The notes under the pieces: model-generated | Seen by the model: the letters and a program-made list of their open reading frames with translations, nothing else | The model's database searches: none | Told to the model about the DNA's origin: nothing | DNA from: JBHIBR01 sp046759145 [NCBI: Nitrospinota bacterium] | GTDB lineage: Bacteria; UBA8248 | Direction of reading: 5' to 3' | NCBI GenBank assembly: GCA_046759145.1 | Contig: JBHIBR010000051.1 | Span: 1-8,605, forward strand | Length of the DNA: 8,605 nt | In this document: one piece after another, positions 3,595 through 8,486 of the stretch | Position numbering within the stretch: the first letter of the stretch is position 1 | Layout: the number at the start of each line of letters is the position of its first letter | Position numbers and translations under genes: made by a program

Positions 3595-4497
3595 CTAAGC
3601 CGGGACCTCCTTTCGCCAGTCCAGGCGATCGGCGATCCGGAGGAGGATGTCCGACTTGTTCAGGACGTAGATGTGGAAGTGCCGCACCCCCATGGACTCG
3701 AGCTCGCGGATCTGGGCGGCGGCCAGGTCGGCGGACTTCTCCTTGAAGGCCTTGGGGTCGCCGCGGTAGGGCTCGAGCGCCGAAACCACCCAGGCGGGCA
3801 CCGAGGCCCCGCACCGCCCGGCGAAGCGCAGCAGTTGGTCGATGTCCCGCACGGGGAGGATGCCCGGGACGATGGGCACCTTCACCCCCCGGCGGAGGAC
3901 CTCCTCCCGGAACCGCTCATAAAGGCTGTTCTCGAAGAAGAACTGTGTGATAGCGTAGTTCGCGCCGGCTTCCACCTTGGCGACGAAATGCTCCAGGTCC
4001 TCCGACCTTTCGGGGGTCTCCGGGTGCCCCTCGGGATGGCAGGCCACCCCAATCGAGGAGAAGCCGCCCACCTTCCGCAGCCAGCGCACCAGGTCGGCGG
4101 CGTAGTGAAAGCCCCCCGCGGTCGCCTCCTCGGGGGCCATCCCCGGGGGGAGATCACCCCGCAGGGCGAGGATGTTCCGCATCTCGTTCTTCTTGTAGAT
4201 GCCCATGAGCTCGGCGAGCTCGGCCTCCCCCGAGCCGACGCAGGTCAGGTGTGCCACCACGCGGCCGGGATAGCGGGCCGCGAGCGCCAGGACAACGCGG
4301 AGGGTGCCGTCGCGGGTGGAGCCGCCCGCCCCGTAGGTCACCGAGGTGAAGGCCACCTCCATCCCCTCGTGGATGCGGCCCACCTCGCGCATGAGACGGG
4401 AGAACCCCTTCTCATCCTGGGGCGGGTACAGCTCGATGGAGGCGGTGACCTCGGGCGACCTGATTCGCTCGGCGACGTCCATTGGCCCGGATCCCAT
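3595..4497 (-). CDS. metF: 5,10-methylenetetrahydrofolate reductase
   Basis: MetF is a cytoplasmic FAD enzyme that reduces 5,10-methylene-THF to 5-methyl-THF, the methyl donor for methionine synthesis. The product is a single-domain TIM barrel of about 300 residues, close to E. coli MetF (296). Numbered from ATG 4497, visible motifs are SIELYPP with the catalytic Glu at 22, SVTYGAGGS at 52-60, LRGDLPP with Asp115 (flavin/folate site), and AITQFFF with Gln185. The C-terminus HFHIYVLNKSD is intact. The start is uncertain. ATG 4497 and ATG 4482 are both in frame and neither has a strong Shine-Dalgarno. The best purine run (AAAAGGGGAGG, 4533-4523) lies too far upstream, and a TTG at 4536 would extend the frame further. 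A degenerate second MTHFR tail follows about 30 nt downstream. No riboswitch pattern known to me was recognised upstream. Function is secure. Confidence 0.94.
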   Translation of the reverse strand: MGSGPMDVAERIRSPEVTASIELYPPQDEKGFSRLMREVGRIHEGMEVAFTSVTYGAGGSTRDGTLRVVLALAARYPGRVVAHLTCVGSGEAELAELMGIYKKNEMRNILALRGDLPPGMAPEEATAGGFHYAADLVRWLRKVGGFSSIGVACHPEGHPETPERSEDLEHFVAKVEAGANYAITQFFFENSLYERFREEVLRRGVKVPIVPGILPVRDIDQLLRFAGRCGASVPAWVVSALEPYRGDPKAFKEKSADLAAAQIRELESMGVRHFHIYVLNKSDILLRIADRLDWRKEVPA

Positions 4498-4805
4498 GTT
4501 CACCGGAGTTATGCCGCAACAACCTCCCCTTTTCAAGTTCGGGCCTACTTGCCCTCGCTCTGGATGTGCTTCTCGCAGAGGAAGGCCATCAAGTCTAGCG
4601 AAAGATACCCTCCGAGGCGCCTCCTACAGCCAAAACCGCGGCCAGAAAGCGGCGTTTTCCTTTTCCGGGCATGATGTGGGTATAGACCGCCCGGGTCTGG
4701 AAGAACGGGGCCCCCGACTCCAGCCGCCGCTGGCGGGCACTCTTCTCTTCCTCGGCCGCCGCCGCTTGCCTGGTGAGCCCTTCCATTGCACCCCCGGCCA
4801 CTGCT
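4498..4805. other. Region without a convincing gene, upstream of metF
   Basis: This stretch separates the peroxiredoxin terminator from metF. It contains the purine-rich AAAAGGGGAGG (minus, 4533-4523), a 10-bp perfect palindrome GAGGCGCCTC near 4614-4623, and short minus-strand open stretches described separately. I found no tRNA, no known riboswitch pattern and no persuasive promoter for metF. Confidence 0.5.
4595..4786 (-). CDS. Possible small hypothetical protein (63 aa), doubtful
   Basis: ATG 4786 to TAG 4597-4595 reads MEGLTRQAAAAEEEKSARQ and continues with RRLESGAPFFQTRAVYTHI. The first ~38 codons have high G/C in third positions like real genes here, and the start resembles a charged amphipathic helix. 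The last ~25 codons lose this bias and look like read-through. GGGGGTG lies about 3 nt before the ATG, too close for a good ribosome site. I do not recognise a family. It may be a decayed gene, a small real gene or chance. Confidence 0.2.
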   Translation of the reverse strand: MEGLTRQAAAAEEEKSARQRRLESGAPFFQTRAVYTHIMPGKGKRRFLAAVLAVGGASEGIFR

Positions 4806-4840
4806 GCACACAAACAAGGCCCCCGCCTGGGCGGGGGCCT
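4806..4840 (-). terminator. Rho-independent terminator of the sod-prx unit
   Basis: AGGCCCCCGC (4817-4826), a 4-nt loop, and GCGGGGGCCT (4831-4840) form a perfect 10-bp stem. On the minus strand the stem is followed directly by the T-rich TTGTTTGTGTG (4816-4806). It begins 41 nt past the peroxiredoxin stop codon, as expected for the end of that transcript. Confidence 0.82.
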
Positions 4841-4880
4841 CCCCGCGCCGCTGCCACCGCAAGCGCCTGCCCCGGGCGGG

Positions 4881-5336
4881 CTAGAGCTTCTCCACCGCCT
4901 CCATCAGCTTCTCGAAGTCGGGCTGGGTGGTGGGGGCAGGGGTGACCTCTTTGTAGACCACCCTCCCCTGTCTGTCAACGAGGAAGACCGCCCGATTGGA
5001 GAAGCCCTCCTCCCGCAGCACGCCGTACCTCTTGCAAGCCTCCTTCCCGAAGAAGTCGCTCAGGAGGGGGAACTGGATCCCGTACCTCTCCGCCCACCCC
5101 TCGTGGGCGAAGGAGCTGTCCACGCTGATGCCGATGACCTCGCAGTCCTTCTTCTGGAAGCGCTCGTAGTTCGCCTGGTAGGAGGGGAGCTGCTCGCTGC
5201 ACACCGGGGAGAAGTCGAAGGGGTAGAAGGCGAGCAGCACGTTCTTCTTCCCTCTGTAGTCGCTGAGCTTCACCTTCTGGTCGCGCGTGCGCGGCAACTC
5301 GAAGTCGGGCGCCAGATCGCCCACCTTCACGGCCAT
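4881..5336 (-). CDS. Peroxiredoxin (AhpE/BCP-like redoxin)
   Basis: This is a cytoplasmic thiol peroxidase of 151 residues that reduces H2O2 or organic peroxides using a reactive cysteine. The thioredoxin-fold core begins [11 protein letters not shown]. The peroxidatic motif is [10 protein letters not shown], with Pro39, Ser43 and Cys46 fitting P-x3-(T/S)-x2-C. The conserved Arg is 116 in SNRAVFLVD. There is no Cys at Cp+5, the resolving position of many BCP proteins. Other cysteines are Cys65 and Cys101. It may therefore be a 1-Cys enzyme, or use an external thiol or one of these as partner. ATG 5336 was chosen because [12 protein letters not shown] is the usual family start and GGAGG lies about 11 nt upstream. 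An open extension to 5417 is proline/glycine-rich and not family-like. The gene lies 96 nt after the SOD stop on the same strand and is followed by a strong terminator, suggesting a sod-prx transcript. The physiological reductant is unknown. Confidence 0.92.
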
Positions 5337-5359
5337 CCTCTCACGCTCCTCCTCGCCGC

Positions 5360-5390
5360 GGGCAGGGGGAGGGTATCCTTCCCCCTGCCC
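5360..5390. promoter_or_regulatory. Strong hairpin in the sod-prx intergenic spacer
   Basis: GGGCAGGGGGA (5360-5370) pairs perfectly with TCCCCCTGCCC (5380-5390). The inner bases can continue pairing through a G-T wobble and GG/CC to a 3-nt TAT loop, giving about 14 pairs. No T-tract follows on either strand, so it is unlikely to be an efficient intrinsic terminator. It lies between the SOD stop and the peroxiredoxin Shine-Dalgarno. It could therefore protect the sod message 3' end or set the ratio of the two proteins. A second shorter GC palindrome occurs near 5401-5415. Confidence 0.6.
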
Positions 5391-5432
5391 CGGACGGATC
5401 GCCCCCCCGGGGGGCACTCACTCGATCTCGGC

Positions 5433-6047
5433 CTACTTGGCGTCCCTGAGCCGCTGGGCTACGTCGTCCCAGTTCACCACGTTCCACCAGGCGTTCACGT
5501 AGTCGGCCCGGCGGTTCTGGTACTTGAGGTAGTAGGCGTGCTCCCACACATCAATGCCCAGCAGCGGAATCAAACCCTCCGTGCGCGGGCTCGTCTGGTT
5601 CGGCATCGTCTTGAGCTCGACCTTGCCGGAACCCCGCTTCGTCGTCAGCCAGCACCAGCCGCTGCCCTGCACCCCCACGGCCGCCTTCGAGAACTGCTCC
5701 CTGAAGCTGGCGAAGCTGCCGAAGGCCGCGTTGATGGCAGCGGCGACCTCACCGCCGGGCTCGCCCCCGCCGCCCGGCTTCATGTTCTTCCAGAAGATGT
5801 TGTGGTTGTCGAAGCCGCCGCCGTTGAAGTTCACGGCGCCCCGGATATTGGCCGGCACGCTGTCCGGGGAGGACAACAGGTCTTCGATGCTCCTGGCGGC
5901 GAGGTCGGCCTTCCCCTCGAGGGCCGCATTCAGGTTGTTGATGTAGGTCTGATGATGCTTGGTGTGATGGATTTCCATCGTCTGGGCGTCGATGTGGGGC
6001 TCCAGGGCGTTATACGCATAGGGCAACTTGGGCAGCTGGTGGGGCAT
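5433..6047 (-). CDS. sodA: Superoxide dismutase, Fe/Mn family, Mn-type signature
   Basis: This 204-residue cytoplasmic enzyme dismutates superoxide to O2 and H2O2. There is no signal peptide. The N-terminal helical hairpin reads [13 protein letters not shown] and then [15 protein letters not shown], with metal ligand His27, His31 and Tyr35. The second ligand is His82 in [11 protein letters not shown]. The C-terminal domain has GSGWCWL, then NQ with Gln151 and [15 protein letters not shown], giving ligands Asp166 and His170. GG at 77-78 and Gln from the C-terminal domain are Mn-type hallmarks. Phe79 replaces the His often found in GGH, so cambialistic metal use is possible. ATG 6047 has AGGGAGG a few bases upstream and gives the standard family start; an open upstream extension is arginine/glycine-rich and unlike the family. 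The promoter proposal implies a leader of about 157 nt (6048-6205), including a small GCGCC/GGCGC hairpin (6144-6158). Confidence 0.97.
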
Positions 6048-6211
6048 GGTTGATCCTCCCTCCCCACGCCGGGAAGACACCTCCGGCCCATATCCCCCCG
6101 CCTTCCTCCTGGAGGGCTTTCCAAACCTCCCCCCGGGGAGGGTGCGCCGCGGAGGCGCCCGCAAGACCCGACCCTTGCGAAATGCCGGGGGAGACTGGTT
6201 CCTTGCCCATC

Positions 6212-6240
6212 CTTATATCACCCCCTCCGGGGCACGTCAA
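6212..6240 (-). promoter_or_regulatory. Sigma70-type promoter for sod-prx
   Basis: On the minus strand, TTGACG (6240-6235, 5 of 6) is separated by exactly 17 nt from TATAAG (6217-6212, 5 of 6). Such a match stands out in this GC-rich window. Transcription would start near 6205, about 157 nt ahead of the SOD start codon. It is back to back with the aquaporin promoter. Confidence 0.7.
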
Positions 6241-6246
6241 ACCGGA

Positions 6247-6265
6247 AATGGGCCGCGGGGCCATT
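6247..6265. promoter_or_regulatory. Imperfect palindrome between two divergent promoters (candidate operator)
   Basis: AATGGGCCGCGGGGCCATT has half sites AATGG-n-CC and GG-n-CCATT arranged symmetrically about position 6256. It sits in the 28-bp gap (6241-6268) between the -35 boxes of the sod and aquaporin promoters. A dimeric regulator bound here would touch both -35 regions. I do not recognise the half site as that of a named regulator, and the GC-rich centre could be chance. Confidence 0.4.
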
Positions 6266-6268
6266 GCG

Positions 6269-6297
6269 TTGACAGGGGGTGAACCCTCCCTTACCAT
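6269..6297 (+). promoter_or_regulatory. Sigma70-type promoter for the aquaporin gene
   Basis: TTGACA (6269-6274, perfect -35) is followed by exactly 17 nt and TACCAT (6292-6297, 4 of 6 to -10). The predicted start is near 6304, leaving a leader of about 115 nt. That leader holds a small GGGCC/GGCCC hairpin (6372-6385) and a TTTTT run (6366-6370). Confidence 0.6.
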
Positions 6298-6419
6298 GCC
6301 GCCCGCCAACTTCCGGTCGGTGAGGTTCGGCGTCTCATCGCCCGCAGCAGGGAATGGGCGTCGCCTTTTTCGGGCCGGGCGGCCCTCATCGAGCGGTGTG
6401 TCCGGTGGGAGGAACGCTC

Positions 6420-7094
6420 ATGGGAGAGACCGGCAAGAAGGTCGTCGCCGAGTTCATCGGGACCTTCGCCCTGGTCTTCATCGGGGCGGGGGCCATCTGC
6501 ACAAACGCGATGTTCAAAGGACAGGTGGGGCTCATCGGGGTTGCCTTCGCCCACGGGCTCGTGTTGGCGGTCATGATCAGCGCCCTGGGACACATCTCGG
6601 GGGGTCACATCAACCCGGCGGTCACGGCGGGCTTCCTGGTGACGGGGAAGATGCGGTGGGAGGAGTGCTGCTATTACGCCATCAGCCAGCTCTTGGGCGG
6701 CGTGGTGGCAGCCTTCTTCCTGCGGGCCATCTTCCCCCTGGCCTCCTGGCAGGAGGCCAAGCTGGGCGCCACCCTCCTGGGGTCCGGCGTGGGCCCCTGG
6801 ACGGGCACCTTCGTCGAGCTCATCCTCACCTTCTTCCTGGTCACCGCCGTCTTCGGCACCGCCGTGGACCCGCGCCACCCGCCCATCGGGGGCTTCGGCA
6901 TCGGCCTGGTGCTGACCTTCGACATCCTCATGGGAGGCCCCCTCACGGGCGCCTCGATGAATCCCGCCCGGAGCTTCGGCCCCGCCCTGGTGGGGGGTTA
7001 CTGGGCGGCGCACTGGGTCTACTGGCTCGGGCCCCTCGTGGGAGGCATCCTGGCCGCCCTCGTCTACGAGAAGCTCTTCATGGGGAAGCGATAA
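6420..7094 (+). CDS. MIP-family channel (aquaporin) with a TIP-like selectivity filter
   Basis: This is a six-helix inner-membrane channel of 224 residues, a normal length for bacterial aquaporins. Both half-helix motifs are present: SGGHINPAVT with Asn65-Pro66-Ala67, and GASMNPARS with Asn181-Pro182-Ala183. Aligning by distance to these motifs, the aromatic/arginine filter residues are His45, Ile169, Ala178 and Arg184. E. coli AqpZ has Phe/His/Thr/Arg and GlpF has Trp/Gly/Phe/Arg. His/Ile/Ala/Arg is instead typical of plant tonoplast TIPs (TIP3-type), and the C-terminal SMNPARSFGPAL and HWVYWLGPLVGG stretches also look TIP-like. The substrate may thus be water plus H2O2, urea or ammonia; this is inference. 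There is no His in the loop before helix 4. ATG 6420 follows GGGAGGA at about 7 nt; an earlier ATG at 6354 adds a non-family segment. It is divergent from sod. Confidence 0.96.
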   Translation: MGETGKKVVAEFIGTFALVFIGAGAICTNAMFKGQVGLIGVAFAHGLVLAVMISALGHISGGHINPAVTAGFLVTGKMRWEECCYYAISQLLGGVVAAFFLRAIFPLASWQEAKLGATLLGSGVGPWTGTFVELILTFFLVTAVFGTAVDPRHPPIGGFGIGLVLTFDILMGGPLTGASMNPARSFGPALVGGYWAAHWVYWLGPLVGGILAALVYEKLFMGKR

Positions 7095-7373
7095 GAAGAC
7101 AGGGCCTCCGGGGCGAAAAGGGACCGCCCAGCTCCGCTCTCCGGCACCCTTGACAAAGGGGCGGTCGCACTGTTAGCTAGAAAGGGGTTGCACTGTCCTC
7201 CGCATAATCGTGTGGGGGCTCCCGCGGGCGTCGGAATTTCTGTGGCGCCGCAGCGCGAGCGGGGGTCTCGCTTCGATATTTTTCCGGTCCATGGGGCTGA
7301 CCTCACACAGGCCGCAGGGCCTTTGTGGCGGATGGGCGCGCGGCCGAAAGCCCCCGGTGAGGAGGAGATGCCC
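7095..7373 (+). other. Aquaporin-ino1 spacer with candidate regulatory elements
   Basis: The spacer holds an 8-bp perfect inverted repeat, GACCGCCC (7122-7129) and GGGCGGTC (7159-7166). It also has a perfect -35-like TTGACA (7150-7155) without a good -10 at standard spacing, and a CATAAT (7203-7208) without a good -35. A small hairpin GCGAG/CTCGC (7255-7271) is followed by TTCGATATTTTT, which could weakly terminate aquaporin transcripts or attenuate ino1. None is strong. The ino1 frame is open upstream to 7188 but the sequence there is not family-like. Confidence 0.3.
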
Positions 7374-8486
7374 ATGACGCCCATCAAGGTTGCAGTGGCG
7401 GGGGTGGGGAACTGCTGCAGCTCGCTGCTCCAGGGGATCGAGCACTACCGCCATCATCCGAACACTGACCTGGGCCTTATGCACCGCACCCTCGGGGGTT
7501 ACGGCCCCGAGGAGATCCAGTTCGTGGCCGCCTTCGACATCGACGCCCGCAAGGTGGGCCGACCGCTTAAGGAGGCGGCTTTCGCCCCCCCTAATTGCAC
7601 CCGCACCATCTGGGAGGACCTGCCCGACTACGACGTGAGGGTGCAGATGGGCCCCGTGATGGACGGGGTGGCCCCCCATATGGCCCATTACCCGCCCGAG
7701 CGCTCGTTCCTGGTGGCGGAGGAACCTCCCTGCGATGTGTCGAAAGTCCTCCGGGAGAGCGAAGCGGAGATCCTCCTCAACTACCTCCCCGTCGGGTCGG
7801 AGGAGGTGAGCCGCTTCTACGCCCAGTGCTGCCTGGAGGCGGGGGTCTCTTTCATCAATTGCGTCCCCGTCTTCATCGCCTCGGACCCCGCGTGGGCGCG
7901 GCGTTTCGCCCAGGCGGGCGTGCCCGTGGTGGGCGACGACATCAAGTCGCAGCTGGGGGCCACCATCCTCCACCGCACCCTCGCCCAGCTCTTCGTGGAC
8001 CGGGGGGTCAAGCTCCTGCGCACCTATCAGCTCAACACCGGCGGCAACACCGACTTCCTCAACATGCTCGAGCGCCAGCGGCTGGCCTCGAAGAAGGTGA
8101 GCAAGACGGAGGCGGTCCAGAGCGTGATGCCCGAGCCCCTCTCGCCCGAAGACATCCACATCGGGCCGAGCGACTACGTCCCCTGGCAGAAGGACAACAA
8201 GGTCTGCTTCCTTCGGATGGAAGGGGAGGGCTTTGGGGGGATCCCCCTCCAGGTCGAGCTGCGTCTCTCGGTGGAGGACTCGCCCAACTCGGGCGGGGTG
8301 GTGGTGGACGTCATCCGGCTCTGCCGCCTCGCCCGCGACCGGGGGGAGGCCGGCCCCCTTTACCCGGTGTGCGCCTACGCCATGAAGCATCCGCCCGTCC
8401 AGATGAGCGACGAGGAGGCCCGGCGGAAGGTCGAGGCCTACCTCGGCAGGGCCGCGCTGGGGGTGGAGAAGCCCAGGGCGCTCTGA
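7374..8486 (+). CDS. ino1: Inositol-3-phosphate synthase (short actinobacterial/archaeal type)
   Basis: Ino1 converts glucose 6-phosphate to 1D-myo-inositol 3-phosphate in the cytoplasm, using bound NAD+ catalytically. It is the first step to inositol lipids and inositol solutes. The 370-residue product starts IKVAVAGVGNCCSSLLQG (Rossmann glycine motif G10-S17), with DID at 55-57 at the expected NAD-ribose strand. NYLPVGSE begins at 136 and the signature GDDIKSQLGATI at 187, with active-site Lys191. NTGGNTDF is at 221-228, KKVSKT at 240-245, GPSDYV at 264-269 and DSPNSGG at 302. All core motifs are intact. GGAGGAG sits about 6 nt before ATG 7374. The alternative ATG 7368 lies right against that Shine-Dalgarno, so 7374 is preferred. 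The stop codon shares its last base with the ATG of the next gene, implying translational coupling. Confidence 0.96.
   Translation: MTPIKVAVAGVGNCCSSLLQGIEHYRHHPNTDLGLMHRTLGGYGPEEIQFVAAFDIDARKVGRPLKEAAFAPPNCTRTIWEDLPDYDVRVQMGPVMDGVAPHMAHYPPERSFLVAEEPPCDVSKVLRESEAEILLNYLPVGSEEVSRFYAQCCLEAGVSFINCVPVFIASDPAWARRFAQAGVPVVGDDIKSQLGATILHRTLAQLFVDRGVKLLRTYQLNTGGNTDFLNMLERQRLASKKVSKTEAVQSVMPEPLSPEDIHIGPSDYVPWQKDNKVCFLRMEGEGFGGIPLQVELRLSVEDSPNSGGVVVDVIRLCRLARDRGEAGPLYPVCAYAMKHPPVQMSDEEARRKVEAYLGRAALGVEKPRAL

Follow-up and report, generated by a model that had tools for sequence, protein, structure and literature searches.

Channels of the MIP (aquaporin) superfamily are tetrameric, and their NPA half-helices help to exclude protons. 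A histidine in helix 5 is typical of strict water channels, hydrogen peroxide is close to water in its size and its hydrogen bonds, and the plant channel TIP2;1 conducts NH3.

In that channel, a loop-C histidine (His131; Phe in TIP1 and TIP3) displaces the filter arginine, as described by Kirscht et al. 2016 (PMC4814140). According to the same study, helix-2 His to Phe was the only single TIP2;1-to-AQP1 substitution that was incompatible with complementation for ammonia, joint replacement of the helix-5 and loop-E residues likewise failed, and H180I by itself conferred some ammonia permeability on AQP1 in stopped flow, yet failed the growth assay; the water permeability of AQP1 H180I was about 100-fold lower (33.2 to 0.32 per s).

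Prokaryotic aquaporins are described under the grades AqpZ, AqpM, AqpN, AqpX and GlpF (PMC11316224, PMC8355241), and AqpZ homologues usually have a helix-2 Phe according to a 2019 review (PMC6912568), which also reports that no aquaporins were found in Nanoarchaeota or Micrarchaeota and ascribes this to possibly incomplete genomes. No prokaryotic clade with an H/I/A/R filter is described in the consulted portions of the main texts of these three papers (supplementary trees may list such sequences unlabelled) or of PMC4245216, PMC12578469, PMC3111385 and PMC8406300. Here, we describe an aquaporin (the query) encoded in an 8,605-nucleotide stretch of DNA from a Nitrospinota bacterium (the window), and we report that it is a typical member of a widespread, little-described prokaryotic aquaporin family.

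Results

The window encodes an aquaporin that appears to have its own promoter

The open reading frame of the query contains no internal stop (Table 1), and its coordinates, its frame, the NPA spacings and the four filter residues given in a preliminary description of this DNA were all exact on recount. Its product matched the Pfam MIP profile PF00230 at 5.5e-62 (209.9 bits, against a cut-off of 25) and TIGR00861 above its cut-off, its NPA motifs lie at residues 65-67 and 181-183, and a six-helix aquaporin fold with two NPA half-helices is seen in both the sequence and the model, making it a member of the MIP/aquaporin superfamily. The AlphaFold2 model, computed from 34 sequences (the query and fetched loci), had a mean pLDDT of 96.7 and a pTM of 0.92. 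A structure search with this model using VIA-align returned aquaporin folds at Z 31-36: AQP4 came first (Z 36.4), followed by AQP0, AQP2 and AQP5, while AtTIP2;1 reached Z 35.1 (rmsd 1.4 over 217 residues) with 42% identity, the highest among the 50 entries listed, the AqpM proteins of Methanothermobacter and Archaeoglobus reached 35.1 and 34.7, and AqpZ about 32-33. Since Z gaps below 1 are ties, TIP is not singled out by structure. A viral structure library gave one strong unnamed match, which was uninformative.

Table 1. Features of the window around the aquaporin gene
Feature	Position	Strand	Basis
Peroxiredoxin (AhpC/TSA family), same strand as the superoxide dismutase gene and 3' of it	4881..5336	-	profile match; start codon by inspection
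Fe/Mn superoxide dismutase (SOD), divergent from aquaporin	5433..6047	-	profile matches; start codon by inspection
Sigma-70-like promoter TTGACA-17-TACCAT, 5' of aquaporin, 10/12 matches	6269..6297	+	consensus match only
Shine-Dalgarno-like GGGAGGA, 5' of ATG 6420	6407..6413	+	direct sequence reading
MIP-family channel (aquaporin), 224 aa	6420..7094	+	ORF, Pfam, residue read-out, AlphaFold2 model
Two overlapping terminator-like hairpins, aquaporin-INO1 interval	7257..7275	+	terminator scan, weak
Myo-inositol-1-phosphate synthase (INO1), downstream of aquaporin	7374-8486	+	profile match

When positions 4400-7420 were scanned, one promoter site was found against 0.2 expected in shuffles, and the aquaporin appears to be served by a promoter of its own. 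Given this promoter-like site and the terminator-like hairpins that follow the gene, the aquaporin may be transcribed as a one-gene transcript. A transcript shared with INO1 was rejected on the same two features, a rejection that is weak because the scan for terminator-like sites gave three in the same interval against 2.3 expected in shuffles, near the shuffle mean.

The SOD and aquaporin start codons are 372 bp apart. We looked for a shared regulatory palindrome in this gap, a GC-rich stretch with 18 short inverted pairs, none of which was convincing. Beyond the peroxiredoxin gene lie MTHFR and then glutamate synthase (gltB), both on the minus strand, which places gltB about 3 kb from the aquaporin with three genes between. 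The INO1 protein was closest to the mycothiol-linked type TIGR03450, at 427.5 bits and thus below the cut-off of 638. The GltB protein reached 62% identity to Chloroflexota sequences, compared with 50% or less in the six genomes from other phyla that matched over about 1000 residues (in G008, an Actinomycetota MAG, the match came in two pieces at 48% and 69%), which makes Chloroflexota or a neighbouring lineage a likely host for these genes.

The filter agrees with TIPs at four positions and differs at the fifth

The filter of the query consists of His45/Ile169/Ala178/Arg184, with His in helix 2, Ile at the helix-5 position, a small Ala in loop E and the customary Arg. HMMER and MAFFT both pair these positions with H/I/G/R of AtTIP2;1 and F/H/T/R of E. 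coli AqpZ, in keeping with the positions first proposed, and the four residues fit the TIP pattern H/I/(A or G)/(R or V). The fifth filter position, in loop C, is Thr118, at a site where TIP2 has His and TIP1 and TIP3 have Phe. Among the 52 H/I/A/R rows of our alignment (below), this position is Pro in 42, Thr in eight (query included) and Gln in two. The pore of the query may thus be narrower than that of TIP2;1, because no His or Phe is present in its loop C to displace the filter Arg as in TIPs. Judged by the complementation assay of PMC4814140, the query retains the residues that matter most there, without the loop-C one.

The best PDB relative of the query by sequence is AtTIP2;1, at 41-42% identity and well ahead of AqpZ. 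The SFGPAL and HWVYWLGPLVGG stretches, which had been read as TIP-like, turned out to be non-specific, as close versions occur in AQP0, AQP5 and AQP8 in our alignments (the AQP8 reference sequence being provisional). Read by eye, the residues at what we take to be Froger positions P2-P5 of the query are Ser/Ala/Tyr/Trp, the pattern of water channels.

H/I/A/R is a standard filter in a broad prokaryotic family

A genome scan by similarity yielded 48 loci, 46 of them with a complete filter. H/I/A/R was found in 19 of these and a helix-2 His in 30 overall, the remaining filters being F/I/A/R (8), P/I/A/R (3, all Meiothermus), GlpF-type (3), F/A/A/L (1) and I/A/G/V (1). With all four residues common to 19 of 46 relatives, H/I/A/R is no chance combination, and the picture of a bacterial oddity carrying a plant filter gives way to that of a filter standard across a broad prokaryotic family. 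In the similarity-picked set of 110 prokaryotic rows, 52 had H/I/A/R (query included; one gene is present twice, as L005 and L080). The closest relatives found are prokaryotic, with up to 64% identity, compared with 41% for TIPs, and the query almost certainly belongs to this prokaryotic His-filter group on the basis of its sequence.

His-filter relatives come from Nano- and Micrarchaeota as well as from ten bacterial phyla, and MAGs account for many of them. By record title, the hosts of H/I/A/R proteins are Gemmatimonadota, Neomarinimicrobiota, Acetothermia, Acidobacteria, Caldithrix, Actinomycetota, Planctomycetota, Dehalococcoidia, Deltaproteobacteria, Meiothermus, and Nano- and Micrarchaeota; binning errors are possible, since MAGs are numerous among them. 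The family, present in MAGs of these two archaeal groups, is frequent in Chloroflexota (the phylum of genome G022), where matches at 1e-20 were found in 195 of 400 genomes. In Acidobacteriota (the phylum of genome G005), 141 of 247 genomes gave matches at E 1e-3; those scoring below the family threshold and classified were mostly F/H/T/R. When 25 family genomes were searched, many of them incomplete MAGs, the family member was the sole MIP gene detected in 21.

Two filter variants were also seen. Nine Chloroflexota aquaporins (L018, L019, L023, L027, L028, L030, L031, L032 and L034) have H/H/A/R, H/S/A/R or H/H/T/R filters and an extra loop-C His, so that a single filter is lined by two or three histidines; the ones included in our tree group with eukaryotic TIP/AQP8/PIP/AQP1. 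Three Meiothermus proteins (L024, L026 and L029) have Pro at the helix-2 site (P/I/A/R), and other Meiothermus rows have His.

A subset of family loci has redox genes as neighbours

Neighbours were searched with phmmer from 15 seeds in flanks mostly within 5-6 kb. The FUR, KatG, GDH and ZIP seeds came from family loci, those for SOD, Prx, GltB, MTHFR and INO1 from the window, and the rest from E. coli K-12; several were picked after the first neighbours had been seen. Loci with a phmmer score above 138 were counted as family, which gave 82 family loci (including one GlpF-type row found via a GlpF query, and L033 with F/A/A/L) and 71 control MIP loci (including one H/H/A/R row and the partial L040).

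FUR, SOD, KatG or catalase genes were found in the flanks of 10/82 family loci (the query, L002, L003, L004, L006, L014, L023, L143, L170 and L171) and 1/71 control loci (L164), leaving 72 family loci with none of the four; the Fisher p is 0.011 (0.020 without the query, 0.036 with L002 and L004 also merged) for a comparison that uses post hoc gene families, counts related genomes and is confounded by phylum. Adding peroxiredoxin (query, L031 and L154 in the family, L237 in the controls) changed the counts to 12/82 and 2/71. A hand tally within Acidobacteriota alone gave 1/19 family loci (L143) versus 1/53 control loci (L164), without clear enrichment (family rows L005, L015, L017 and L139-L154; control rows L155-L167 and L202-L241). 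OxyR and Dps gave no matches in the scan of the 82 family and 71 control loci. With E. coli seeds, AmtB and GlnK were absent near all 82 family loci, and one AmtB match was found at a control locus.

A genome-wide expectation was also derived from gene counts in 72 genomes, for neighbours within 1.2 kb. Fur-family genes were observed four times against 0.148 expected (P 1.8e-5; 4.8e-4 when the related loci L002 and L004 are merged), catalase twice against 0.017 (P 1.5e-4) and SOD once against 0.073 (P 0.07, non-significant); genomes G554 and G639 look related. The Fur-family gene lies directly upstream on the same strand, 4-79 nt away (frame edges), in L002, L003, L004 and L143. Three of these four were scanned; PerR models were their best matches, with scores under the curated cut-offs. 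PerR binds its metal through His37/Asp85/His91/His93/Asp104, and Fur has Glu at the Asp104 site (PMC4866751); read by eye, the L003 and L143 proteins retain all five residues and those of L002 and L004 have Asn at the Asp104 site.

In two large Chloroflexota genomes, catalase and aquaporin genes stand in tandem, separated by 200 and 148 nt, and KatG lies 220 nt (frame edges) downstream of the aquaporin in L023. SOD was found in the flanks of only 3/82 family loci (the query, L006 and L014), and SOD-aquaporin as a conserved pair was therefore rejected.

Several arrangements were recorded alongside these counts. At two Marinimicrobia loci (L002:1906-3794 and L004:5617-7528), a PerR-like Fur regulator, the aquaporin and a ZIP metal transporter stand in a one-strand row. 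The catalase tandems lie at L245:1771-4115 and L246:1986-4383; the L245 aquaporin frame stops soon after the second NPA and adjoins what looks by eye like a transposase frame. At the control locus L164:361-3041, on a 3-kb contig, KatG-like frames flank an aquaporin of the AqpZ type (F/H/S/R). In a SAR202 MAG (Chloroflexota), glutamate dehydrogenase is divergent from an H/H/A/R aquaporin, with 94 nt between frame edges (L028:2418-4511).

Water and, tentatively, hydrogen peroxide are the proposed cargoes

Our best guess is that the query is a water channel that would also pass H2O2 and possibly NH3. We regard it as an even call that the query is a passive channel for water and small neutral solutes, from a deep prokaryotic group marked by the histidine-based H/I/A/R filter, with H2O2 a useful cargo in some hosts. 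In such a passive pore, Ile169 and Ala178 would make the outer constriction wider than in AqpZ, and His45 and Arg184 would provide hydrogen bonds in the filter. A filter wider than that of AqpZ, as mutagenesis of AtTIP2;1 and AQP1 suggests, would pass water plus H2O2 or NH3, and H2O2 would move down its gradient; the neighbours suggest a coupling with PerR-like regulation or with SOD, catalase, KatG or peroxiredoxin encoded close by. Conduction of water is very probable, and permeability to NH3 in vitro could equally well be expected or not by analogy with TIP2;1. The gene neighbours point weakly to H2O2 and make it the better guess for physiology; as a physiological cargo it is a tentative assignment, suggested by gene context, for which the streptococcal channels So-AqpA and Aagp (below) are bacterial precedents.

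A rather unlikely alternative is that the query is a plain osmotic water channel, a general cell aquaporin with an incidental H/I/A/R filter and incidental redox neighbours. As the sole MIP gene in 21/25 family genomes (many of them incomplete MAGs), such a channel may cover general water permeability, and both the water-channel-like residues at the presumed P2-P5 positions and the 72/82 family loci that lack the four redox genes are consistent with it, whereas the roughly 100-fold loss of water permeability on replacing the helix-5 His of AQP1 by Ile, together with Fur and catalase neighbours above the genome-wide expectation, argues against it.

Somewhat less likely again is an aquaammoniaporin resembling TIP2;1 or AQP8, conducting NH3 and perhaps urea in the service of nitrogen metabolism. 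Only the helix-2 His and helix-5 Ile of the query agree with that class; these are the ammonia-associated residues, but the loop C lacks the counterpart of His131. Glutamate synthase lies about 3 kb away in the window, although three genes separate it from the aquaporin, and glutamate dehydrogenase lies 94 nt away in L028, against which stands the lack of any AmtB or GlnK match (E. coli seeds) near the 82 family loci.

Filter-stripped trees place the query apart from AqpZ and TIPs

To keep the filter itself from shaping the result, maximum-likelihood trees were computed without the four filter positions and the loop-C position. The alignment comprised 110 prokaryotic and 12 reference rows (122 in all); eight rows were eukaryotic (NIP2;1 apart), four of these being provisional sequences, including two of the three TIPs. 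The partial L040 and L046, L120 (which has a stop) and the duplicate loci L049-L073 had been excluded beforehand. For the first tree (85 rows), 37 prokaryotic rows were dropped, mostly near relatives of kept ones, and for the second (59 rows), 26 more, namely long branches, AQP8, GlpF-type, W/x/A/R, AqpM-like and Meiothermus rows and the H/H clade.

In the 85-row tree, the query fell in a 61-row group (94/78) without AqpZ, AqpM, NIP/AqpN-like or GlpF rows, in which TIP, AQP8, PIP and the AQP1 group were nested. The Chloroflexota H/H/A/R (or H/S/A/R, H/H/T/R) clade with loop-C His (99/92) sat with these nested eukaryotic rows. In the 59-row tree, the query fell in a 44-row group (98/95), with TIP and PIP/AQP1 still inside as one branch (96/92). 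AqpZ formed its own branch in both trees (99/97 in the first), the three TIP rows did so at 100/99 in both with the query outside, and in both trees AqpM rows lay outside the group of the query and the query lay outside the branch with OsNIP2;1. The query also lacks the W/G/(F or Y)/R filter of GlpF and lay outside the GlpF branch of the 85-row tree. As to its nearest kin within the family, no starred set of at most half the rows held the query in either tree.

The AU test, with groups defined after tree inspection, gave p 0.045, barely below 0.05, for the query inside the AqpZ clade, p 0.052 for AqpZ with the core His-filter prokaryotes, p 0.094 for the His-filter prokaryotes as one clade with eukaryotes outside, and p 0.151 (0.234 in the 59-row set) for AqpZ and PIP/AQP1 as one clade, which is hence unrejected. 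A MIP phylogeny including AqpM and TIPs, proposed in the preliminary description as a check, thus placed the query outside AqpZ with the filter columns removed, and the query is probably not an AqpZ.

It is accordingly very improbable that the query is an AqpZ whose filter converged on H/I/A/R: aquaporin Z (NF003838) was its best-scoring NCBIfam equivalog, at 134.8 bits, but this is far under the cut-off of 256, AqpZ was the weakest of 12 blastp references (90 bits, against 150 for AtTIP2;1, the best), it stood apart in both filter-stripped trees with the borderline AU result just given, and the query has His45 in place of the helix-2 Phe that accompanies helix-5 His or Ile in AqpZ. Horizontal gain of a plant TIP gene can practically be discarded, since TIPs, despite AtTIP2;1 being the best PDB match, branch alone without the query, whose prokaryotic relatives are closer. 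With TIP and AqpZ branches excluding the query and prokaryotic kin closest, both of these origins were rejected.

The label "plant TIP-like" therefore survives in part: it holds for the four filter residues and for a closeness of sequence that extends beyond the filter (best PDB match, best of 12 blastp references), and it fails for the branch, the loop-C Thr and the supposed motifs. A safe statement is that the TIP likeness of the query probably reflects ancestry more than convergence, and in our trees the His-filter group appears more closely allied with plant and animal aquaporins than with E. coli AqpZ.

Discussion

The interest of the family lies in selectivity, in its redox neighbours and in a possible kinship with eukaryotic aquaporins. 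It offers a prokaryotic comparison group for TIP/AQP8 selectivity, it links PerR or catalase to a channel in a testable way, and it opens a route to the question of eukaryotic aquaporin origin. It is conceivable, if doubtful, that the main eukaryotic water channels (TIP, AQP8, PIP and the AQP1 group) descend from the prokaryotic His-filter family and not from AqpZ. If so, H/I/A/R would be older than plants, the F/H/x/R water filter of PIP/AQP1 would be a second invention, separate from that of AqpZ, and intermediates would include, for example, the Chloroflexota H/H/A/R proteins (which, like TIP2;1, have a loop-C His) and the F/H/A/R type seen in AQP0.

Comparison with known systems

The query shares with E. 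coli AqpZ the fold, the paired NPA motifs, a prokaryotic host and a length near 230 aa, and differs in the filter (F/H/T/R in AqpZ), in its low blastp score and in its branch. AqpM of Methanothermobacter and Archaeoglobus has the same helix-5 Ile, the Arg and a similar fold, whereas its helix-2 Phe and loop-E Ser (F/I/S/R) and its place outside the group of the query set it apart. The streptococcal channels So-AqpA and S. suis Aagp resemble the query in proposed cargo (H2O2) and PerR link, a likeness by description only, and Aagp has another filter type: So-AqpA passes H2O2 and is repressed by PerR and MntR, and Aagp is described as 68% identical to the atypical Y/V/P/R type of S. pneumoniae (PMC10461500). 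Animal AQP8 has the helix-2 His, the helix-5 Ile and a D-I-L-x-G-G-P stretch in helix 5 (provisional AQP8 sequence) in common with the query, but differs by its loop-E Gly and an identity of 39% over 199 residues, and it forms a long branch of uncertain place in the 85-row tree. Plant TIPs (AtTIP2;1 and the TIP3 type) have the H/I/(A or G)/R filter and, at 41-42% identity, the closest solved structure by sequence, whereas the query is encoded by a bacterial gene, lies outside their branch and carries a loop-C Thr (mostly Pro in its family) where TIPs have His or Phe.
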